DNA of 43,894 nucleotides from assembly GCA_017883415.1 (NCBI GenBank), contig JADGNR010000004.1, positions 1 to 43,894 of the forward strand, in the 5' to 3' direction. The notes beneath the pieces were generated by a model that made no database searches, was not told the DNA's origin, and was given only the letters and a program-made list of their open reading frames with translations. Numbering within the stretch: the stretch's first letter is position 1; each line of letters begins with the position of its first letter. Below are positions 3,709 through 26,635 of the stretch, one piece after another. Made by a program: the position numbers and the translations under genes. Source of the stretch: Bryobacteraceae bacterium. GTDB taxonomy: Bacteria > Acidobacteriota > Terriglobia > Bryobacterales > Bryobacteraceae.

Positions 3709-4919
3709 GGCTCTACTCCAGGTGCCGGTTGGGGAATCGACTCCCGGTGCGCGGCCAGGGCTTCGGCCGCCAGGATCGGGTCGCTCACCGGCGTGAGCGG
3801 AGCCGCCCCCAGGCTCCAGATGAAGAACAGATAGGCCAGCGCCGCGCAGCCTAGGGCAATCGTGACTTCGGGGATGCCGATCCGGGGCGCGCTCCAGGCG
3901 GAGGGCATGATCAGGATATACAGGTCCAGCCAGTGCCCCAGCAGAAGCAGCACGCACACGATCTTGAGCGCTCGCGGGTTGCGCTTCACGGGGGCGCCCA
4001 GCAGCACGGCGAAGGGGACCATCCAGTTCACCGCGAAATTCGCCACGAAGAACGGAAGCCACGGCCCGTTGGTGCGCCGGACATAATGAGTCACTTCTTC
4101 GGGGATGTTGCCGTACCAGATCAGCAGGTACTGGCAGGTCCAGATGTAGGCCCAGAAGGTGGAGAAGGCGAACAGCAGCTTTCCCAGATCGTGCAGATGA
4201 TGACCGGTGACGGCCTCGGTCAAAAAGCCGCGCCCCCGCAACAGGACCGCGGCCAGCGTGATGGCCGCCAGGCCCTCGACGAAGGTCCCCGCGAAAACGT
4301 AAATCCCGAACATGGTGCTGAACCACGAAGGATCGAGCGAGAGGATCCAGTCGTAGGAGCCCAGGGTGAACGAGAGCGCAAACACCACCACAAAGGCCGC
4401 GGCATAGCGGTTCAGGCGGTAGTGATAGACCAGGCTCGAGCCCGGATTCCGGTCCTGCGCGAGCGAGGTCCGGCGGAAGAGCCAGGCGAAGACCATCCAC
4501 AGGAACAGCGCCACGCCCGCGCGTACGAAGACCCAGGGCTCCGCGAGGTAGCGCACCTTGCCGGCGAGGGCGGGCGCGTGGGCGAACGCACCGGGGCGGC
4601 TCCAGGGGTAAATCCAGTGACGCCCGAAATAGAGCGCCATCATGAGCGCCGCGGCTGCGGGCAACACCGCCATAAACGCTTCCGGGATGCGCCGCAGGCC
4701 GGCCGACCAGCGCGCCCCGGTGAGCCGCTGGGATGCAATGAAGAACATGGCCGATACCGCCAGCGAGGTGATATAGAAGCCGTCCAGCAGGAGGTTCAGC
4801 CAGGTGCGCTCCGGCGCCGTCGCGAGACCGTACGCGGCCACGCCCGCACCCGCGAGCACCAGCACAATCGCCGCCGTGAAGTGGCGGGCGGAGGGCCTGA
4901 ACCGGAGGTTGGCGGTCAC
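3705..4919 (-). CDS. actF: Alternative complex III subunit ActF (NrfD-like membrane protein)
   Basis: A 404-aa polytopic membrane protein, about ten hydrophobic segments, of the quinol:cytochrome c oxidoreductase NrfD/PsrC-like family. Visible segments include SLDPSWFSTMFGIYVFAG, FAFSTFWAYIWTCQYLLIWY and NWMVPFAVLLG, typical of ActF. The start is GTG at 4919, overlapping the actE stop (GTGA) with a strong GGAGG six bases upstream; open frame further upstream is only an out-of-frame copy of actE. In ACIII, ActC and ActF are homologous membrane subunits, one of which binds quinol. The next gene overlaps by four bases. Assignment is firm from family features and gene order. Confidence 0.93.
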   Translation of the reverse strand: MTANLRFRPSARHFTAAIVLVLAGAGVAAYGLATAPERTWLNLLLDGFYITSLAVSAMFFIASQRLTGARWSAGLRRIPEAFMAVLPAAAALMMALYFGRHWIYPWSRPGAFAHAPALAGKVRYLAEPWVFVRAGVALFLWMVFAWLFRRTSLAQDRNPGSSLVYHYRLNRYAAAFVVVFALSFTLGSYDWILSLDPSWFSTMFGIYVFAGTFVEGLAAITLAAVLLRGRGFLTEAVTGHHLHDLGKLLFAFSTFWAYIWTCQYLLIWYGNIPEEVTHYVRRTNGPWLPFFVANFAVNWMVPFAVLLGAPVKRNPRALKIVCVLLLLGHWLDLYILIMPSAWSAPRIGIPEVTIALGCAALAYLFFIWSLGAAPLTPVSDPILAAEALAAHRESIPQPAPGVEP

Positions 4920-5623
4920 CGCTTGCCTCCTGGCTGGCCGGCCGCCGGCTGGTCCGCGAACTGTTGCAGAGCGATGCGCACGTAGGTCACGATCTTCCAC
5001 CGCTCGGCGGCGCTGAGCTGCGCGGCATAGGGCCGCATCTTGCCCGCGCCCATGGTGATCACGTGGAAGAGGCGGCCCGGCGGAAACTGCATTACGCGAT
5101 CGGAGGCGTAGGAAGGCGGATGAGGAATCCTCTCGGCCACCGGCCCGTCTCCCCTGCCACTCTTGCCGTGGCATACCAGGCAGTAGGTCTGGTACAGCGC
5201 CCAGCCTTCCTGCATCACCTGTGGCGTGGCGCGGAGCGGATTCGCGAGCTCGCGTCCGGCGCGGGCGGCTTCCTGCTCGCCGGCCCCGTAGTGAAACGGC
5301 ACGTACCCGCGCGGGATGGTGCCCGCCACCGGAAGCTGGAGCGTAAGGCCGTCGCGGGTCACCGGATTGGGCGCATACGCTTTGTAGGCCGGGTCCCTCG
5401 CCATGTCGGGCATGTACTCGTAAGCGCGATGTTGGGAGCTGGCGCCGCAGCCCGCCGCCGCAGCCGCGGCCAGCACGACGAACCACGTCGCCAGGGCGGC
5501 AGGCTGAAGCCTGCCCCACCACCGCGCGCGGCGCGCTGGGCAGGCCAGGAGGCCTACCCCACTGCGCCGGCTGAAAGCCGGCGGCAGCCAGGATTGGCTG
5601 CCCCACAACGGGATGGTTTTCAT
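4916..5623 (-). CDS. actE: Alternative complex III subunit ActE (monohaem cytochrome c lipoprotein) with repeat-derived N-terminus
   Basis: A 235-aa lipoprotein cytochrome with one haem site (CLVCHGKSGRGDGP) and a likely Met ligand region (MGAGKMRPYAAQL). ActE is the monohaem subunit of ACIII. The lipobox LAAAAAAGC puts the lipidated Cys at residue 59, far from the start. Residues about 7-42 are encoded by a run of GC-rich palindromes at 5498-5604, so the signal sequence carries an extra 36 residues (for example PAFSRRSGVGLLACPARR). The start ATG at 5623 overlaps the actD stop (ATGA), and no other start sits nearer the lipobox. The rest looks intact, including MPDMARDPAYKAY and the haem domain. 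Confidence 0.9.
   Translation of the reverse strand: MKTIPLWGSQSWLPPAFSRRSGVGLLACPARRARWWGRLQPAALATWFVVLAAAAAAGCGASSQHRAYEYMPDMARDPAYKAYAPNPVTRDGLTLQLPVAGTIPRGYVPFHYGAGEQEAARAGRELANPLRATPQVMQEGWALYQTYCLVCHGKSGRGDGPVAERIPHPPSYASDRVMQFPPGRLFHVITMGAGKMRPYAAQLSAAERWKIVTYVRIALQQFADQPAAGQPGGKR
5498..5604. repeat. Cluster of four palindromes inside actE
   Basis: Four hairpins in a row within the actE coding region: GGCAGGCT-GA-AGCCTGCC (5498-5515), GGGCAGGCC...GGCCTACCC (5538-5560), CGCCGGCT-GAA-AGCCGGCG (5565-5583) and GGCAGCCA-GGAT-TGGCTGCC (5583-5602). The frame stays open and the block supplies residues 7-42. The second hairpin is the same family as intergenic copies at 12838 and 26564. In those, TAG in the arm acts as a stop; here it is read out of frame as GVGLL. 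Confidence 0.85.
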
Positions 5624-12837: not shown

Positions 12838-12913
12838 GTGGGGTAGGCCTCCTGGCCTGCCCTCGGAACCGGCTGCGCGCCGCGCGCTGGGCAGGCCGGG
12901 AGGCCTACCCTAC
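12838..12913. repeat. Dispersed palindromic repeat, copy A
   Basis: Two arms about 22 bases long form an inverted repeat: GGGTAGGCCTCC... at 12841-12862 and its near-perfect complement GGGCAGGCCGGG... at 12889-12910, with a GC-rich spacer. The right arm contains the stop codon of the GH2 gene (TAG on the minus strand, 12910-12912). It can fold into a strong hairpin and probably works as a terminator. Related arms occur at 5538-5563, 24351-24420 and 26564-26635. Confidence 0.85.
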
Positions 12914-15477
12914 TTCGCCTCGATTTGTACTTCGCCGGGTGCGAGGCCGTCGGACGTGGCGCTTAGACGAATCGGTCCCAGCTTGCCGTTTTGCGACCGC
13001 ACGATCGCCAGCGCCAGGCCGCTGAACGCCTTGCGGTAGTCCGCCTGGAACGGCTCCACCGATGCCGCGTTGCCGTTATCTACGGCTGCGATCGCGGCGG
13101 GCCCCTCCAGATGGAATTTGACGAGGTTATCGGCCAGGGGGCAGAGGTTGCCGTCCTTGTCTTCGATGCGCACGGTTACGAAGGAGAGATCCTCGCCATC
13201 GGAGGCGATGGCCTTCCGGTCCGGAGTCAGCACCACGCGCGCCGGCGCTCCGGCGGTCTTCACGCTGTCCACCGCGAACTGCTTGCCATCGCGGTAGCCA
13301 ATGGCTTTCAAATCCCCGGCCGCGTAAGCCACTTCCCATTCCAGCCGGTATTTGCTGGTGAACGTGCCGGCCTGGCTGACGTTCTTGCCGACCGGCAGCA
13401 CCACCGTGTCCGCGCCCAGCTTTTTGCGGCCCAGCGACTGGCCGTTCAGGAAAAGCTCCACCTCCGGGGCATTGGTGTAGACCATGACCGGAATCTTCTC
13501 GCCTTCATGTCCCGCCCAGTTCCAATGGGGAAACAGGTGCACGGTCGGCTCACTGGTCCAGACGCTCTTGTAGATGTAGTAGCGGTCCTTGGGGAATCCA
13601 GCCAGATCGACAATGCCGAAGTAGGAGCTGCGCGACGGCCAATCGGCTCGGGCGCCGTAGGGCGTCGGCTCGCCCAGATAGTCGAACCCGGTCCACACGA
13701 ATTCGCCCAGAACCGCGGGCAGTTCGTGCTGGTAGGTGAATTCGACATCGGGGCAGTAGGCCCAGGGGGGCGCTTCGATATCGTAGCTGCTCACCTGCAG
13801 ATCGGGCGTTTTGTTTTCCAGCTTCATGGGCAGATGATATACGCCGCGGGAGCTCACGCACGACGCCGTCTCCGAGCCGAAGATCACCCACGCGGGGTGG
13901 TCCTTGCGGATCTGGCTGTACTGAAAGGGCTGATAGTTGAAGCCGGGGACGTCGACTGCGGCGGCCAGCCCGTTCTTGATGGCGCCCGAGAAATCGTTGA
14001 AGGCCGCCGTGGTGGGACGCGTGCGGTCCTCCTCGTGGCAGATGTCGGTCAGGCGTTGCGCCAGCTTGCCGCCATCGGCGCGGCCCTGCTCTTCGATTTC
14101 GTTGCCGATGCTCCACAGGATGACGCTCGGGTGGTTGCGGTCGCGGCGGATAAGATCGCGCAGGTCGCGTTCGAACCACTGGTCGAAAAACTTGCTGAGC
14201 CCGTTCTTCACTTTCGGAATGCGCCACATGTCGAAGGCTTCGTCCATCACCAGCAGACCGAGGCGGTCGGCCGCTTCCAGCAACTCGGGCGAGGGCGGAT
14301 TGTGGCTGGTGCGGATGGCGTTCACGCCCATCGAGCGCATAATCTGCAACTGCCGCTCGGTGGCGCGCGCATTCACCGCCGCTCCCAGCGCGCCCAGGTC
14401 GTGGTGATTGCACACGCCCTGCAGTTTGCGGTAGCGGCCGTTCAGCAGGAAGCCCTTCTCGCGGTCGAACTCGATGGTGCGAATGCCGAACGGCGTCGTG
14501 TAACGGTCGACGACACTTCCGCCCTGCCTTACTTCGGTGACTGCGCTGTAGAGGTACGGGCTGTCGATGTCCCACCGCCGCGGGTTGGCGACGGTCAACT
14601 TCTGCGAGAGGGTCTGCTTACCGCCGGCGGGCAGCGAGCCGTCGCTGGTCACCTGCGCCACGCGCTTCCCGGAGGCGTCCAGGATAGACGTTGTGAGCCG
14701 GATCGGCGCCGCAGCGGGCCCCTGATTTTCGATCTCGGTCGCAATGGCGACGGTTGCCTTGCCGGCGGTGACCGCGGGAGTCGTAACGTAAGTGCCCCAG
14801 TGCGCGACGTGCACCGGACCGGTGACGGTGAGCCACACGTTGCGGTAGATGCCGGCCCCCGGATACCAGCGCGAGGACTGCTCTTCCGGCGTCAGCCGCA
14901 CGGCCAGCACGTTGTCGCCATCCGGGTTGATGTAGGGTGTAAGGTCCAAGGCAAAGCTCGAGTAGCCGTAGGGCCGCTCGCCGAGCTCATGGCCGTTCAG
15001 CCATACGCGCGCATTGGACATGGCGCCGTCGAATTCCACCGTTCGGCGGTAGCTTCTGTATTCCGTCACGGTGAAGTGCTTGCGATACCAGCCCGTGCCG
15101 GAGATGGGCAGACCGCCGGTGTGGGCGCTGATCCGCTGGTCGAACGGGCCTTCGATGGCCCAGTCGTGCGGCAGCGTGAGCGAGCGCCACGAGGAGTCGT
15201 CGAACGCGGGCATTTCCGCGCCCGCCGCCTCGCCTTTGAAGAACCGCCAGCCGTCGTTGAAGAGCACGCGTCGTTCATACCTGGTCCGGCCCTGTGCGCC
15301 GGCCGGCAGCGCGGCTATCACGAGACTGCAAATCAAGATCGCATACCGCGCAGCTTTGATCGGTTGGCAGGCGAAAGCGCCTGCCCCACCAGAGCGCACA
15401 TTCCGGTGCAATGTGGGACAGACGTTTTCGTCTGTCAACCTGGAGGTCCCAAGGGAGGGGTTCTTGCCTGGAAACAT
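12910..15477 (-). CDS. Secreted glycoside hydrolase family 2 (beta-galactosidase-like) with repeat-derived N-terminus
   Basis: An 855-aa GH2 enzyme. In order: signal peptide (about residues 41-62, AILICSLVIAALPAGAQ), sugar-binding domain (NDGWRFFKGEA, GTGWYRKHFTV), Ig-like domain, TIM barrel (SMGVNAIRTSHNPPSPELLE), a DUF4982-like part and a C-terminal Ig-like domain. The acid/base is E460 (SIGNEIEE) and the nucleophile E536 (FGSETASC). It should cleave beta-linked sugars, galactoside most likely, outside the cytoplasm. The start ATG at 15477 has AAGGAT upstream. About 25 residues ahead of the signal peptide come from palindromes at 15366-15436, and no start codon lies between them and the signal peptide. 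The stop lies in repeat copy A. Confidence 0.88.
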   Translation of the reverse strand: MFPGKNPSLGTSRLTDENVCPTLHRNVRSGGAGAFACQPIKAARYAILICSLVIAALPAGAQGRTRYERRVLFNDGWRFFKGEAAGAEMPAFDDSSWRSLTLPHDWAIEGPFDQRISAHTGGLPISGTGWYRKHFTVTEYRSYRRTVEFDGAMSNARVWLNGHELGERPYGYSSFALDLTPYINPDGDNVLAVRLTPEEQSSRWYPGAGIYRNVWLTVTGPVHVAHWGTYVTTPAVTAGKATVAIATEIENQGPAAAPIRLTTSILDASGKRVAQVTSDGSLPAGGKQTLSQKLTVANPRRWDIDSPYLYSAVTEVRQGGSVVDRYTTPFGIRTIEFDREKGFLLNGRYRKLQGVCNHHDLGALGAAVNARATERQLQIMRSMGVNAIRTSHNPPSPELLEAADRLGLLVMDEAFDMWRIPKVKNGLSKFFDQWFERDLRDLIRRDRNHPSVILWSIGNEIEEQGRADGGKLAQRLTDICHEEDRTRPTTAAFNDFSGAIKNGLAAAVDVPGFNYQPFQYSQIRKDHPAWVIFGSETASCVSSRGVYHLPMKLENKTPDLQVSSYDIEAPPWAYCPDVEFTYQHELPAVLGEFVWTGFDYLGEPTPYGARADWPSRSSYFGIVDLAGFPKDRYYIYKSVWTSEPTVHLFPHWNWAGHEGEKIPVMVYTNAPEVELFLNGQSLGRKKLGADTVVLPVGKNVSQAGTFTSKYRLEWEVAYAAGDLKAIGYRDGKQFAVDSVKTAGAPARVVLTPDRKAIASDGEDLSFVTVRIEDKDGNLCPLADNLVKFHLEGPAAIAAVDNGNAASVEPFQADYRKAFSGLALAIVRSQNGKLGPIRLSATSDGLAPGEVQIEAK
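15366..15436. repeat. Cluster of short palindromes inside the GH2 signal region
   Basis: Three adjacent hairpins lie within the coding sequence: GGCAGGCG-AAAG-CGCCTGCC (15366-15385), CACATT...AATGTG (15397-15415) and GACAGACG-TTTT-CGTCTGTC (15417-15436). They encode residues about 14-38 of the GH2 protein. The arrangement of tandem hairpins flanked by CCCAC matches the block in actE at 5498-5604. Confidence 0.8.
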
Positions 15478-15517
15478 AAGTGATCCTTATCCGAAATCTG
15501 AAATTACCACACCCCGT

Positions 15518-17161
15518 CTACACGCCGTCCGCCGACCCGCGCCCCAGCAGTCCGGCCGCCTGCAAGATGCGCCGCACCTTCTTGGGTGAAATCGAAAGGC
15601 GGTCCGCCACGCGCGAGATTTTGCGGTCCTCCCGCTCCCAGACTTTGGGAATAATCACCGCGGCGAATTCGTCGGTAATCTGCTGAAAGCTTTTTCCCCC
15701 GGTGTGGCCGTCGGACCACTCGCGCAGGACGGGATCGATTTCGCCGGTGCGGCGCAGCCGGGCCTCGAGCGCGTCCAGGTCCTCCCACTCGTGCTCCTGT
15801 TCGTGCCCGTCGGGCCGGAGCAGCGCCCGGGCTTCGTCCAGGCAGCGCCGTGCGGCCTCGCGGTTTTGAAAATGGTCGCTGGCATGCGTGAGACCCTGCC
15901 ACACGCAAGCGCGGGCCAGCAAGCGCCGGTTCTGCGTCTGCCGGGCGTACTCCACGGCATCGCGGGCGCAATTGTAGGCGAGCTGCGCGTGCCGCGCCGG
16001 GTCCTCGCCGATCTGCTCTTCCAGCCGCGCGTTCTCGATGGTGCACTGGAGCATGCGCGCCCGCGCCATCACGATGGTATCCCGCTTCTCTTCTCCCTGG
16101 CGGAAGGCCCGTTGGGCATCGGAGCTGGCGGATTCCAGGTCGCCCGAATCCAGGTGCAGGAGCCCGGAGTTGATATGGACGCTGCCGATGCCGCGATGAA
16201 TTCCGCGCTGGAGGTAGATCTCGCTGGCCTCGGCCAGATGCGCCCGCGCCGCGGAGCGCAAGCGCTCCACTTCCAGTCTCCGGGCGCGCGAGTTTTCCGA
16301 CGACCGTTCGAGCGCTTCGGCGCTGCGGCGGCGGGCCGAGGCCCGGTCGATCTGCTTCTGGCAGCGCAGCGCGATGAGGCGCTCCACCGACGCAATGTTG
16401 ACCAGCGAGCGCGCCAGGTGGAGGTGTTGCGGGTCCCACCGCTTATACTCCGTGATGGCGCGGTCGAAATACTCCAGCGCCTGTTCGTACCGCCCCTGGC
16501 GGCGGGCGATGCGTCCATAGGCCGATTGGATGTTGCCGCGGCTGACGAAATCGTCGGTGGCGCCGAGCGTCGCTTCCGACTGTTCCAGCAGCCCGCACGC
16601 CTCTTTGAGTTTCCCTTTCTGAAACGCCAGCCAGCTTTCCAGCACCTGCATCACCGCGGCCATGGGACCGTAGCCGCAGTCGTTCGCCAGGGTTATGGCC
16701 TTCGCCGTATAGCTCAGCGCGTCGTCGTAGCGGCCGATGCGCCGCAGGCAGCGCGCGGTCCAGAAGTTGGCAATGGCCAGCAACTCCGCGTCGTCGACCT
16801 CGCCTTCGAGCGACTGCACAAAGCGGAAGTGCTGGCTGGCCTGCTCGAAGTCCTCCCCGGCCAGGGCCACCATGCCTTCGGCCATGCGGACGTGCAGGTA
16901 ATCGAGCAGCGGCAGCGCCGCCCTCGATGGCGCGGGAAAGCGGGCCAGCAACTCCCGCACCAGTTCCGGACCTCCGAATCCGGCATCGACCCATTGCGCC
17001 AGCATCCCCAGAAAGACGCCGGAGTGCGGCAGCACCGGTCCCAGCGAGGCGAGTACGGGGGCGGCGGATTCCAGGGTTCGCATCCCGCTGGCGATGCGCC
17101 GGAATGCCAGATCCTCCCGAAGCTGCCGGATGATGGCGTCGAGCTCGGGAGGGGCGCTCAT
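15518..17161 (-). CDS. TPR protein with C-terminal Fis-type helix-turn-helix
   Basis: A 547-aa, largely helical protein with several TPR-like units, for example RIGRYDDALSYTAKAITLA and RQGRYEQALEYFDRAITEY, and a C-terminal DNA-binding helix-turn-helix (KISRVADRLSISPKKVRRIL, about residues 512-531) of the Fis/NtrC C-terminal kind. It has no receiver or AAA domain. It follows the Ser/Thr kinase gene by 42 bases on the same strand, so the two probably form an operon and the TPR protein may be the kinase substrate; this is inference. The start ATG at 17161 has no clear Shine-Dalgarno. Its targets are unknown. Confidence 0.75.
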   Translation of the reverse strand: MSAPPELDAIIRQLREDLAFRRIASGMRTLESAAPVLASLGPVLPHSGVFLGMLAQWVDAGFGGPELVRELLARFPAPSRAALPLLDYLHVRMAEGMVALAGEDFEQASQHFRFVQSLEGEVDDAELLAIANFWTARCLRRIGRYDDALSYTAKAITLANDCGYGPMAAVMQVLESWLAFQKGKLKEACGLLEQSEATLGATDDFVSRGNIQSAYGRIARRQGRYEQALEYFDRAITEYKRWDPQHLHLARSLVNIASVERLIALRCQKQIDRASARRRSAEALERSSENSRARRLEVERLRSAARAHLAEASEIYLQRGIHRGIGSVHINSGLLHLDSGDLESASSDAQRAFRQGEEKRDTIVMARARMLQCTIENARLEEQIGEDPARHAQLAYNCARDAVEYARQTQNRRLLARACVWQGLTHASDHFQNREAARRCLDEARALLRPDGHEQEHEWEDLDALEARLRRTGEIDPVLREWSDGHTGGKSFQQITDEFAAVIIPKVWEREDRKISRVADRLSISPKKVRRILQAAGLLGRGSADGV

Positions 17162-25709: not shown

Positions 25710-26564
25710 ATGAGACTCTTCCTGACGGGCGCCACCGGCTACATCGGCGCGGTAGTTACGGAAAAGTTGCGTGCCGCGGGACACCAGGTGGCGGGACTGG
25801 CGCGTTCCGGCGAATCCGCGCGCACGTTGGAAAAGCTGGGCGCGGAGGCGGTGCGGGGCGACCTACGGGATACTGCGGCGATAGCTGTCGGCGCGGGTCA
25901 GGCCGACGCCGCGATGCATCTCGCCATGGAGCCGTCTCCGGAGGCGCCGCGGCTCGACGGCGCCGCCGTCGGGGCGATCCTGGCTGGCTTGCGCGGCTCC
26001 GCCAAGCCTTTTCTCTATACCAGCGGCGTATGGGTAATGGGCGGCACCGGCGGTCACGTAGCCGACGAAAACACGCCAGTGAACCCCGCTCCTTTTGTGG
26101 CGTGGCGGCCCGCAAACGAGCAGCTGGTGCTGAACGCAGCAGGACCGCACGGGATCGTGATCCGCCCGGCGATGGTCTACGGCCGCGGCGGAGGATTCCC
26201 CGGTGACTTCGCGCGCCAGGCCAGAGAGCAGGGAGTCGTGCGCTATGTCGGCTCGGGTGATAATCGCTGGCCGTTGGTGCACGTGGACGACCTGGCGGAC
26301 CTCTACGTGCTAGCGCTCGAGGCCCGCGCCGGATCGCTCTACTTCGCCTCGACGGGACCCTCACTGCCGGTGAAGGAGGTGGCGCACGCCGCCGCCGCGG
26401 GAGCACGCGTCGAAGCCATCCCCCTGGAGGAGGCTCGCCGCGTGATGGGCCCCATGGCCGATGCCCTCACGCTCGATCAGGTAATCAGCGCGCAGAAAGC
26501 CGTCCGCGAGCTCGGCTGGAACCCCAAAGGCAAATCTCTTCTCGAGGAGCTTTCCGTCGAGTAG
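25710..26564 (+). CDS. NAD-dependent epimerase/dehydratase family protein (extended SDR)
   Basis: A 284-aa Rossmann-fold protein. The dinucleotide-binding motif is FLTGATGYIGAVV at the very N-terminus. Other SDR landmarks are VRGDLRDT, the active-site-like FLYTSGVWVMGG, and IRPAMVYGRGGGFP. The usual YxxxK pair is not obvious, so it may be an atypical SDR that binds NAD(P) for redox or sensing. The C-terminal part resembles NAD-dependent epimerases acting on small substrates. It follows MerR closely. Its stop codon TAG (26562-26564) merges into palindromic repeat copy B, which shares it with the convergent FAD gene. Confidence 0.82.
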   Translation: MRLFLTGATGYIGAVVTEKLRAAGHQVAGLARSGESARTLEKLGAEAVRGDLRDTAAIAVGAGQADAAMHLAMEPSPEAPRLDGAAVGAILAGLRGSAKPFLYTSGVWVMGGTGGHVADENTPVNPAPFVAWRPANEQLVLNAAGPHGIVIRPAMVYGRGGGFPGDFARQAREQGVVRYVGSGDNRWPLVHVDDLADLYVLALEARAGSLYFASTGPSLPVKEVAHAAAAGARVEAIPLEEARRVMGPMADALTLDQVISAQKAVRELGWNPKGKSLLEELSVE

Positions 26565-26635
26565 GGTAGGCCTCCTGGCCTGCCCACGCGCCGTAGGCGC
26601 GCTCCCCGCGCGAGGCAGGCCGGGAGGCCTACCCC
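26564..26635. repeat. Dispersed palindromic repeat, copy B, between convergent genes
   Basis: Left arm GGGTAGGCCTCCTGGCCTGC at 26564-26583 and its complement at 26614-26635, with an inner GC-rich palindrome. It fills the whole gap between the epimerase and the FAD-dependent gene, touching the stop codon of the first and containing that of the second. It can serve as a bidirectional terminator. Confidence 0.85.

Follow-up and report, generated by a model that had tools for sequence, protein, structure and literature searches.

The window analyzed here is a 43,894-nt stretch of contig JADGNR010000004.1 of a Bryobacteraceae bacterium (Acidobacteriota). Its minus strand carries a gene for a GH2 glycosidase with GH2 N, sandwich, TIM barrel, DUF4982, and GH2_C5 domains (Pfam), the nearest named relatives of which come from Terriglobia, Bryobacteraceae, and Solibacter MAGs. 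Residues 14 to 38 of the product are encoded, in frame, by a palindromic repeat, and a second gene of the window, for an ActE-like cytochrome c, has a palindrome cluster in the corresponding part of its signal peptide (Table 1). An 830-aa open frame on the plus strand (12991 to 15483), antisense to the GH2 gene, is most likely a G+C-rich shadow frame.

Table 1. Coordinates, strand, and basis of assignment of features in the window
Feature	Position	Strand	Basis or remark
Palindrome cluster of another REP subfamily, n-region of ActE-like cytochrome c (gene 5623..4916)	5496..5606	-	
GH2 glycosidase gene, 855 aa, with the repeat inside the signal-peptide n-region	12910..15477	-	Pfam and sister ortholog
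Signal-peptide hydrophobic core AILICSLVIAAL	15307..15342	-	Translation; retained in sister species
REPIN/BIME, head-to-head pair of GTGG-tagged REPs around a variable spacer	15358..15448	-	BLAST boundaries; 14 near-full-length own-genome copies
REP A, GTGGGGCAGGCGCTTTCGCCTGCC, encoding GGAGAFACQ	15366..15389	-	82 copies at ≤3 mismatches, own genome
Middle hairpin, weak, CACATT-CCGGTGC-AATGTG, 6-bp stem, in variable spacer	15397..15415	.	Direct reading
REP B, GTGGGACAGACGTTTTCGTCTGTC, inverted relative to REP A, stem differences paired	15413..15436	+	Sequence reading and copy comparison
Probable GH2 start, AAGGAT + CACTT + ATG	15475..15488	-	Direct reading; sister species has GAGGAT, then ATG
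Gene upstream of GH2	15518..17161	-	Syntenic in sister species (DNA alignment)

A REPIN, probably translated, in a signal peptide

The preliminary description of this DNA reported three hairpins between 15366 and 15436 that encode residues ~14 to 38, before the hydrophobic core, and so extend the signal peptide. This is confirmed, in that two hairpins with perfect stems of 8 bp and loops of 4 nt (15366 to 15385 and 15417 to 15436) and a third, weak hairpin lie in frame within the n-region. The perfect palindromes are GTGGGGCAGGCG-CTTT-CGCCTGCC and the inverted GTGGGACAGACG-TTTT-CGTCTGTC; the sequence differences between REP A and REP B are paired, and both stems are therefore kept. BLAST within the genome nevertheless indicates that the repeated unit (~91 nt, about 15358 to 15448) exceeds the span first reported. 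Each REP has a GTGG head and a GC-rich palindrome (GGCAGGCG-CTTT-CGCCTGCC), and the unit that is repeated is an inverted REP pair with a short spacer, which differs from copy to copy among 14 near-full-length copies with conserved arms.

As the preliminary description also stated, AAGGAT and an ATG lie upstream of the repeat, 5 nt separating the two, and the stretch from the repeat to the hydrophobic core has no ATG, GTG, or TTG. The other in-frame candidate codons fall within the repeat (TTG14, TTG23, and GTG27) or within the core (TTG48 and GTG53). The view that the second cluster of the window is independent also stands, since the GH2 and ActE clusters belong to different REP subfamilies. 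Further REPs of the ActE-cluster subtype lie at 12875 to 12919, overlapping the GH2 stop codon, and at 26560 to 26593.

The GH2 repeat belongs to a numerous and dispersed family. In this genome of 5.84 Mb, which is 96.5% complete, the 24-nt core has 82 copies at ≤3 mismatches, 42 on one strand and 40 on the other, on >60 contigs. This is far above chance, because the reversed control gave 0 copies and a 99-nt stretch containing the repeat gave 44 BLAST matches. Most copies are extragenic, 47 of the 82 being clearly intergenic and just one of these 47 lying between divergent genes. Within the family Bryobacteraceae the core is patchily distributed, occurring in 31 of 101 genomes with up to 172 copies; at ≤2 mismatches there are 71 copies in this genome versus 5 in the sister species (G001).

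In a relative (G037, contig C155), a Y1 RAYT-type transposase gene (L333) is flanked by inverted REPs one mismatch from the window type, and no other RAYT-type gene with flanks of that subtype was found; a search for one across the 636 contigs of the own genome, which is 96.5% complete, gave none. The genome does contain a Y1 transposase gene (L121, contig C64) flanked by inverted REPs that resemble its own ActE insert subtype, and the inverted REPs around a RAYT-like gene of the sister species (L318, contig C37) resemble the ActE insert subtype of that species.

Empty sites in the sister species

Gene order at this locus, with the upstream gene next to GH2, is the same in the sister species, where DNA alignment shows the repeat block to be absent. 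The two GH2 proteins are 91% identical from residue 37 on; in the sister species only 7 codons, with no repeat, separate the start from the matching n-region residues, and the protein of the window has 36 net extra codons, in frame. Some 18 nt of the net gain lie outside the REPIN, which counts against a simple REPIN insertion. Of 18 further GH2 orthologs that were read, none has this REP in the stretch from start to core; two of them bear another palindrome, upstream of the ATG. These comparisons suggest that the GH2 repeat block is probably an insertion derived after the split from the sister species.

Two other genes have an in-frame insert that is absent from its homolog in the sister species. 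In L114, ATGAGCATGAAACGCAACTTAGG followed by the REP aligns with the sister sequence ATGAGGACGAAACGGAACTGG, and in L100, CCCATGAATAGGAGC and the REP align with GCCATGAACGTGA; in both, the ATG is retained and the REP lies between it and the core. These empty sites show that some N-terminal REPs went in behind a start codon that was kept, and such copies are very probably translated. The ActE ATG, which overlaps the upstream stop codon, is homologous in both species; a palindrome cluster follows it in each, and the two clusters differ in subtype. L080 and the ActE gene were excluded as empty sites because the sister species has a different palindrome cluster at the same place, and for L129 there was no convincing sister match.

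Distribution of translated copies

Each of the genome's 82 copies of the 24-mer class was retrieved with its flanks and read in context. Genes were placed by a hidden-Markov gene call trained on the same genome and seeded with known genes of the window, which it recovered; an earlier hexamer gene caller was dropped because it drifted to antisense frames. To these were added 122 copies from three relatives (G036, G037, and G094), which were the first among the matches listed and not a random sample, giving a pooled set of 204 copies in which one event was counted per locus. Genes and signal peptides were called with home-made scripts, and the calls were then curated by hand; one of the C-terminal cases is doubtful. 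L270 and L278 were reassigned by hand to interior positions, and L129, which has prolines near its core, and L275, which has a Tat motif, to exported proteins. Automated calls of L087, L143, L245, and L293 as translated but not exported were dropped, since in these genes the repeat is followed by an ATG and the coding model overran upstream. L107 (contig C494) was left out of the counts; the signal-peptide core of this CHAT-domain protein may be the REP-encoded GAGAFACVLAVSLL itself.

The copies in this genome that are not intergenic lie, by the gene call, in an open frame of the neighboring gene. Five are certainly in frame at an N terminus with no start before the core (GH2, L114, L129, L100, and L080), and all five are in signal-peptide n-regions; two others encode C-terminal tails, of glutamate synthase (L134) and of a proton antiporter subunit (L145). 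Among the 122 copies from relatives, exported N termini are represented by L251 and its ortholog L300, L275, L282, and L304, and a cytosolic N terminus by one M24 peptidase (L248). The same sample contains C-terminal tails and, at interior sites, a dozen in-frame inserts, among them those in IleRS (L277), TrmD (L278), GlyS (L279), a CCA-adding enzyme (L243), a carboxyltransferase-domain protein (L290), and an M20 peptidase (L287) of G036 and G037.

The preliminary description had suggested a genome-wide check for hairpins in coding DNA near exported N termini, and the translated copies of the pooled set are indeed enriched there rather than evenly spread. Signal-peptide N termini hold 9 of 27 translated events versus a 5.3% share of codons (~6-fold; P ~7e-6), and N-terminal translated events are exported rather than cytosolic in a ratio of 9:1 versus a generous 35% baseline (P ~6e-4), these P values resting on hand curation of small numbers, a crude signal-peptide rule, and copies from relatives that were first among the matches listed. 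Open-frame copies lying before a usable start follow the baseline, 16 exported to 33 not (16/49); the contrast of 9:1 with 16:33 gives a Fisher P of ~0.001, with the same reservations. The preliminary description had left open whether signal peptides tolerate or attract the repeats. That the bias vanishes for copies just outside the coding sequence favors tolerance, and attraction is not borne out. Nor are signal peptides an exclusive site, given the in-frame REPs inside housekeeping enzymes of relatives; only the bias toward them holds.

Proposed insertion behind the start and selective tolerance

REPs are usually viewed as intergenic, and N-terminal cases are usually put down to wrong start calls. 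A REP is defined by a GT(A/G)G head followed by a GC-rich palindrome with a 2- to 4-nt center (PMC2817692), and GTAG/GTRG-tagged REPs and BIMEs have RAYT (TnpA-REP) partners (PMC2817692, PMC3733652). The repeat of the window resembles these in its GTGG head, its GC-rich perfect palindrome with a 4-nt loop, its dispersal in dozens of copies, its inverted pairs, its location mostly between convergent or codirectional genes, and the inverted REPs flanking a RAYT-type gene in a relative; it differs in that the window copy lies within a coding sequence and no RAYT gene of the same subtype was found in its own genome. REPINs, described as REP doublets that form hairpins, were defined in extragenic space (PMC3116915). 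The unit of the window, with two inverted REPs and a short variable spacer, ~90 nt in all and in 14 near-full-length copies, matches that description except that it lies in a coding frame.

Intragenic, translated REPs have precedents. PMC3733652 describes them in Opitutus terrae, Thauera, and Rickettsia conorii (RPE-4 and RPE-6), including in tRNA-related enzymes, notes an N-terminal excess, and ascribes most of the N-terminal cases in several species to downstream starts; it also cites the Rickettsia palindromic element RPE-1, which is found in frame in protein genes and is expressed in N-terminal cases. That intragenic REPs exist, are translated, occur in tRNA-related enzymes, and are in excess at N termini is thus already known from that source. 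The inserts described here are likewise short, palindromic, and in frame, and they too occur in tRNA-related enzymes, but here empty sites reveal inserts behind a kept start, with a concentration in signal-peptide n-regions that the relevant section of that paper does not mention. The likeness to RPE-1, which is described as longer, is one of description, and no homology is claimed. Literature searches on REPs located in signal peptides turned up no relevant work. The present comparison adds two points: empty sites as evidence that REPs were inserted behind a start codon that was kept, and the clustering of translated copies in signal peptides.

We propose that RAYT-type transposition scatters the REPINs of a dispersed family and that the GH2 repeat is one such copy, presumably placed by a RAYT. 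After the split from the sister species, a ~91-nt REPIN would have inserted in frame between the GH2 start codon and the core, and the n-region would have gained a net 36 codons through this insertion. The n-region of a signal peptide requires little more than a start and a net positive charge. Copies in coding DNA would survive only where the protein tolerates ~10 to 30 extra residues and the frame stays open, above all in signal-peptide n-regions and also in C-terminal tails and at interior sites of enzymes; such selective tolerance would account for the signal-peptide bias. Judging from its frame, the GH2 repeat appears to be translated, and the enzyme is probably still exported, because the demands on the n-region are slight and neither the core nor the cleavage site has changed. 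We consider this explanation as a whole highly probable.

The main alternatives concern the start codon. The preliminary description held that the insertion destroyed the original start and that an upstream ATG was recruited. The distance from the upstream stop codon to the GH2 ATG, ~42 nt versus ≤7 nt in the sister species, indicates that the leader was rebuilt, but L114, L100, and the ActE gene all keep their original ATG, leaving the proposed loss unsupported. The start contexts are AAGGAT-CACTT-ATG here and GAGGAT-ATG, with a single ATG, in the sister species; because the sister ATG also directly follows GAGGAT, the two may be the same codon. We regard destruction and recruitment as unlikely, and on these alignments the GH2 ATG would be at least as likely to be original as recruited. 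Alternatively, translation could begin at GTG27 within the REPIN, or at a nonstandard codon, leaving most of the repeat as 5' leader, with mRNA hairpins providing whatever role it has. GTG27 is in frame and would yield a compact signal peptide, MRSGGAGAFACQPIKAARYAILICSL, with only REP A translated; the leader folds strongly (z = −3.25), REPs elsewhere here precede a usable start in 16 + 33 cases, and PMC3733652 places most N-terminal REPs of several species before the true start. Yet GTG27 has no evident Shine-Dalgarno sequence, in contrast to AAGGAT at ATG1, the ancestral ATG lies upstream of the REP in L114 and L100, and since the stretch from REP A to the core has no start, translation would include REP A in any case. 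A start at GTG27 is, in our judgment, quite improbable.

Two further alternatives concern how the repeat came to be where it is. The different-subtype clusters that the ActE gene and L080 bear at the same place in both sisters suggest recurrent insertion or subtype replacement, as might be expected if signal peptides were hot spots that actively attract the transposition machinery. However, REPs just before starts show no bias toward exported proteins (16/49 versus the 35% baseline), and housekeeping enzymes of relatives carry interior insertions, so that we consider active attraction very improbable. A misjoined repeat in the metagenome assembly might be suspected in a genome fragmented into 636 contigs, as repeats break assemblies, but both flanks are continuous and syntenic in the sister species, the element is short, and sites of the same type are seen in further genes and genomes; such an artifact is scarcely credible.

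In practice, automatic start and signal-peptide calls in such genomes require care. The contrast of 9:1 with 16:33 separates tolerance from attraction and offers a simple rule, testable in any REP-rich genome. More tentatively, signal-peptide n-regions might be the main part of the Bryobacteraceae proteome in which REPINs survive translation, with the REP/RAYT system repeatedly lengthening export signals behind fixed starts and acting as a general source of new leader peptides; we offer this as a possibility to which we do not yet lean.

Among the C-terminal cases, L145 and L307, from different genera, are both Proton_antipo_M subunits with REP-encoded C-terminal tails.
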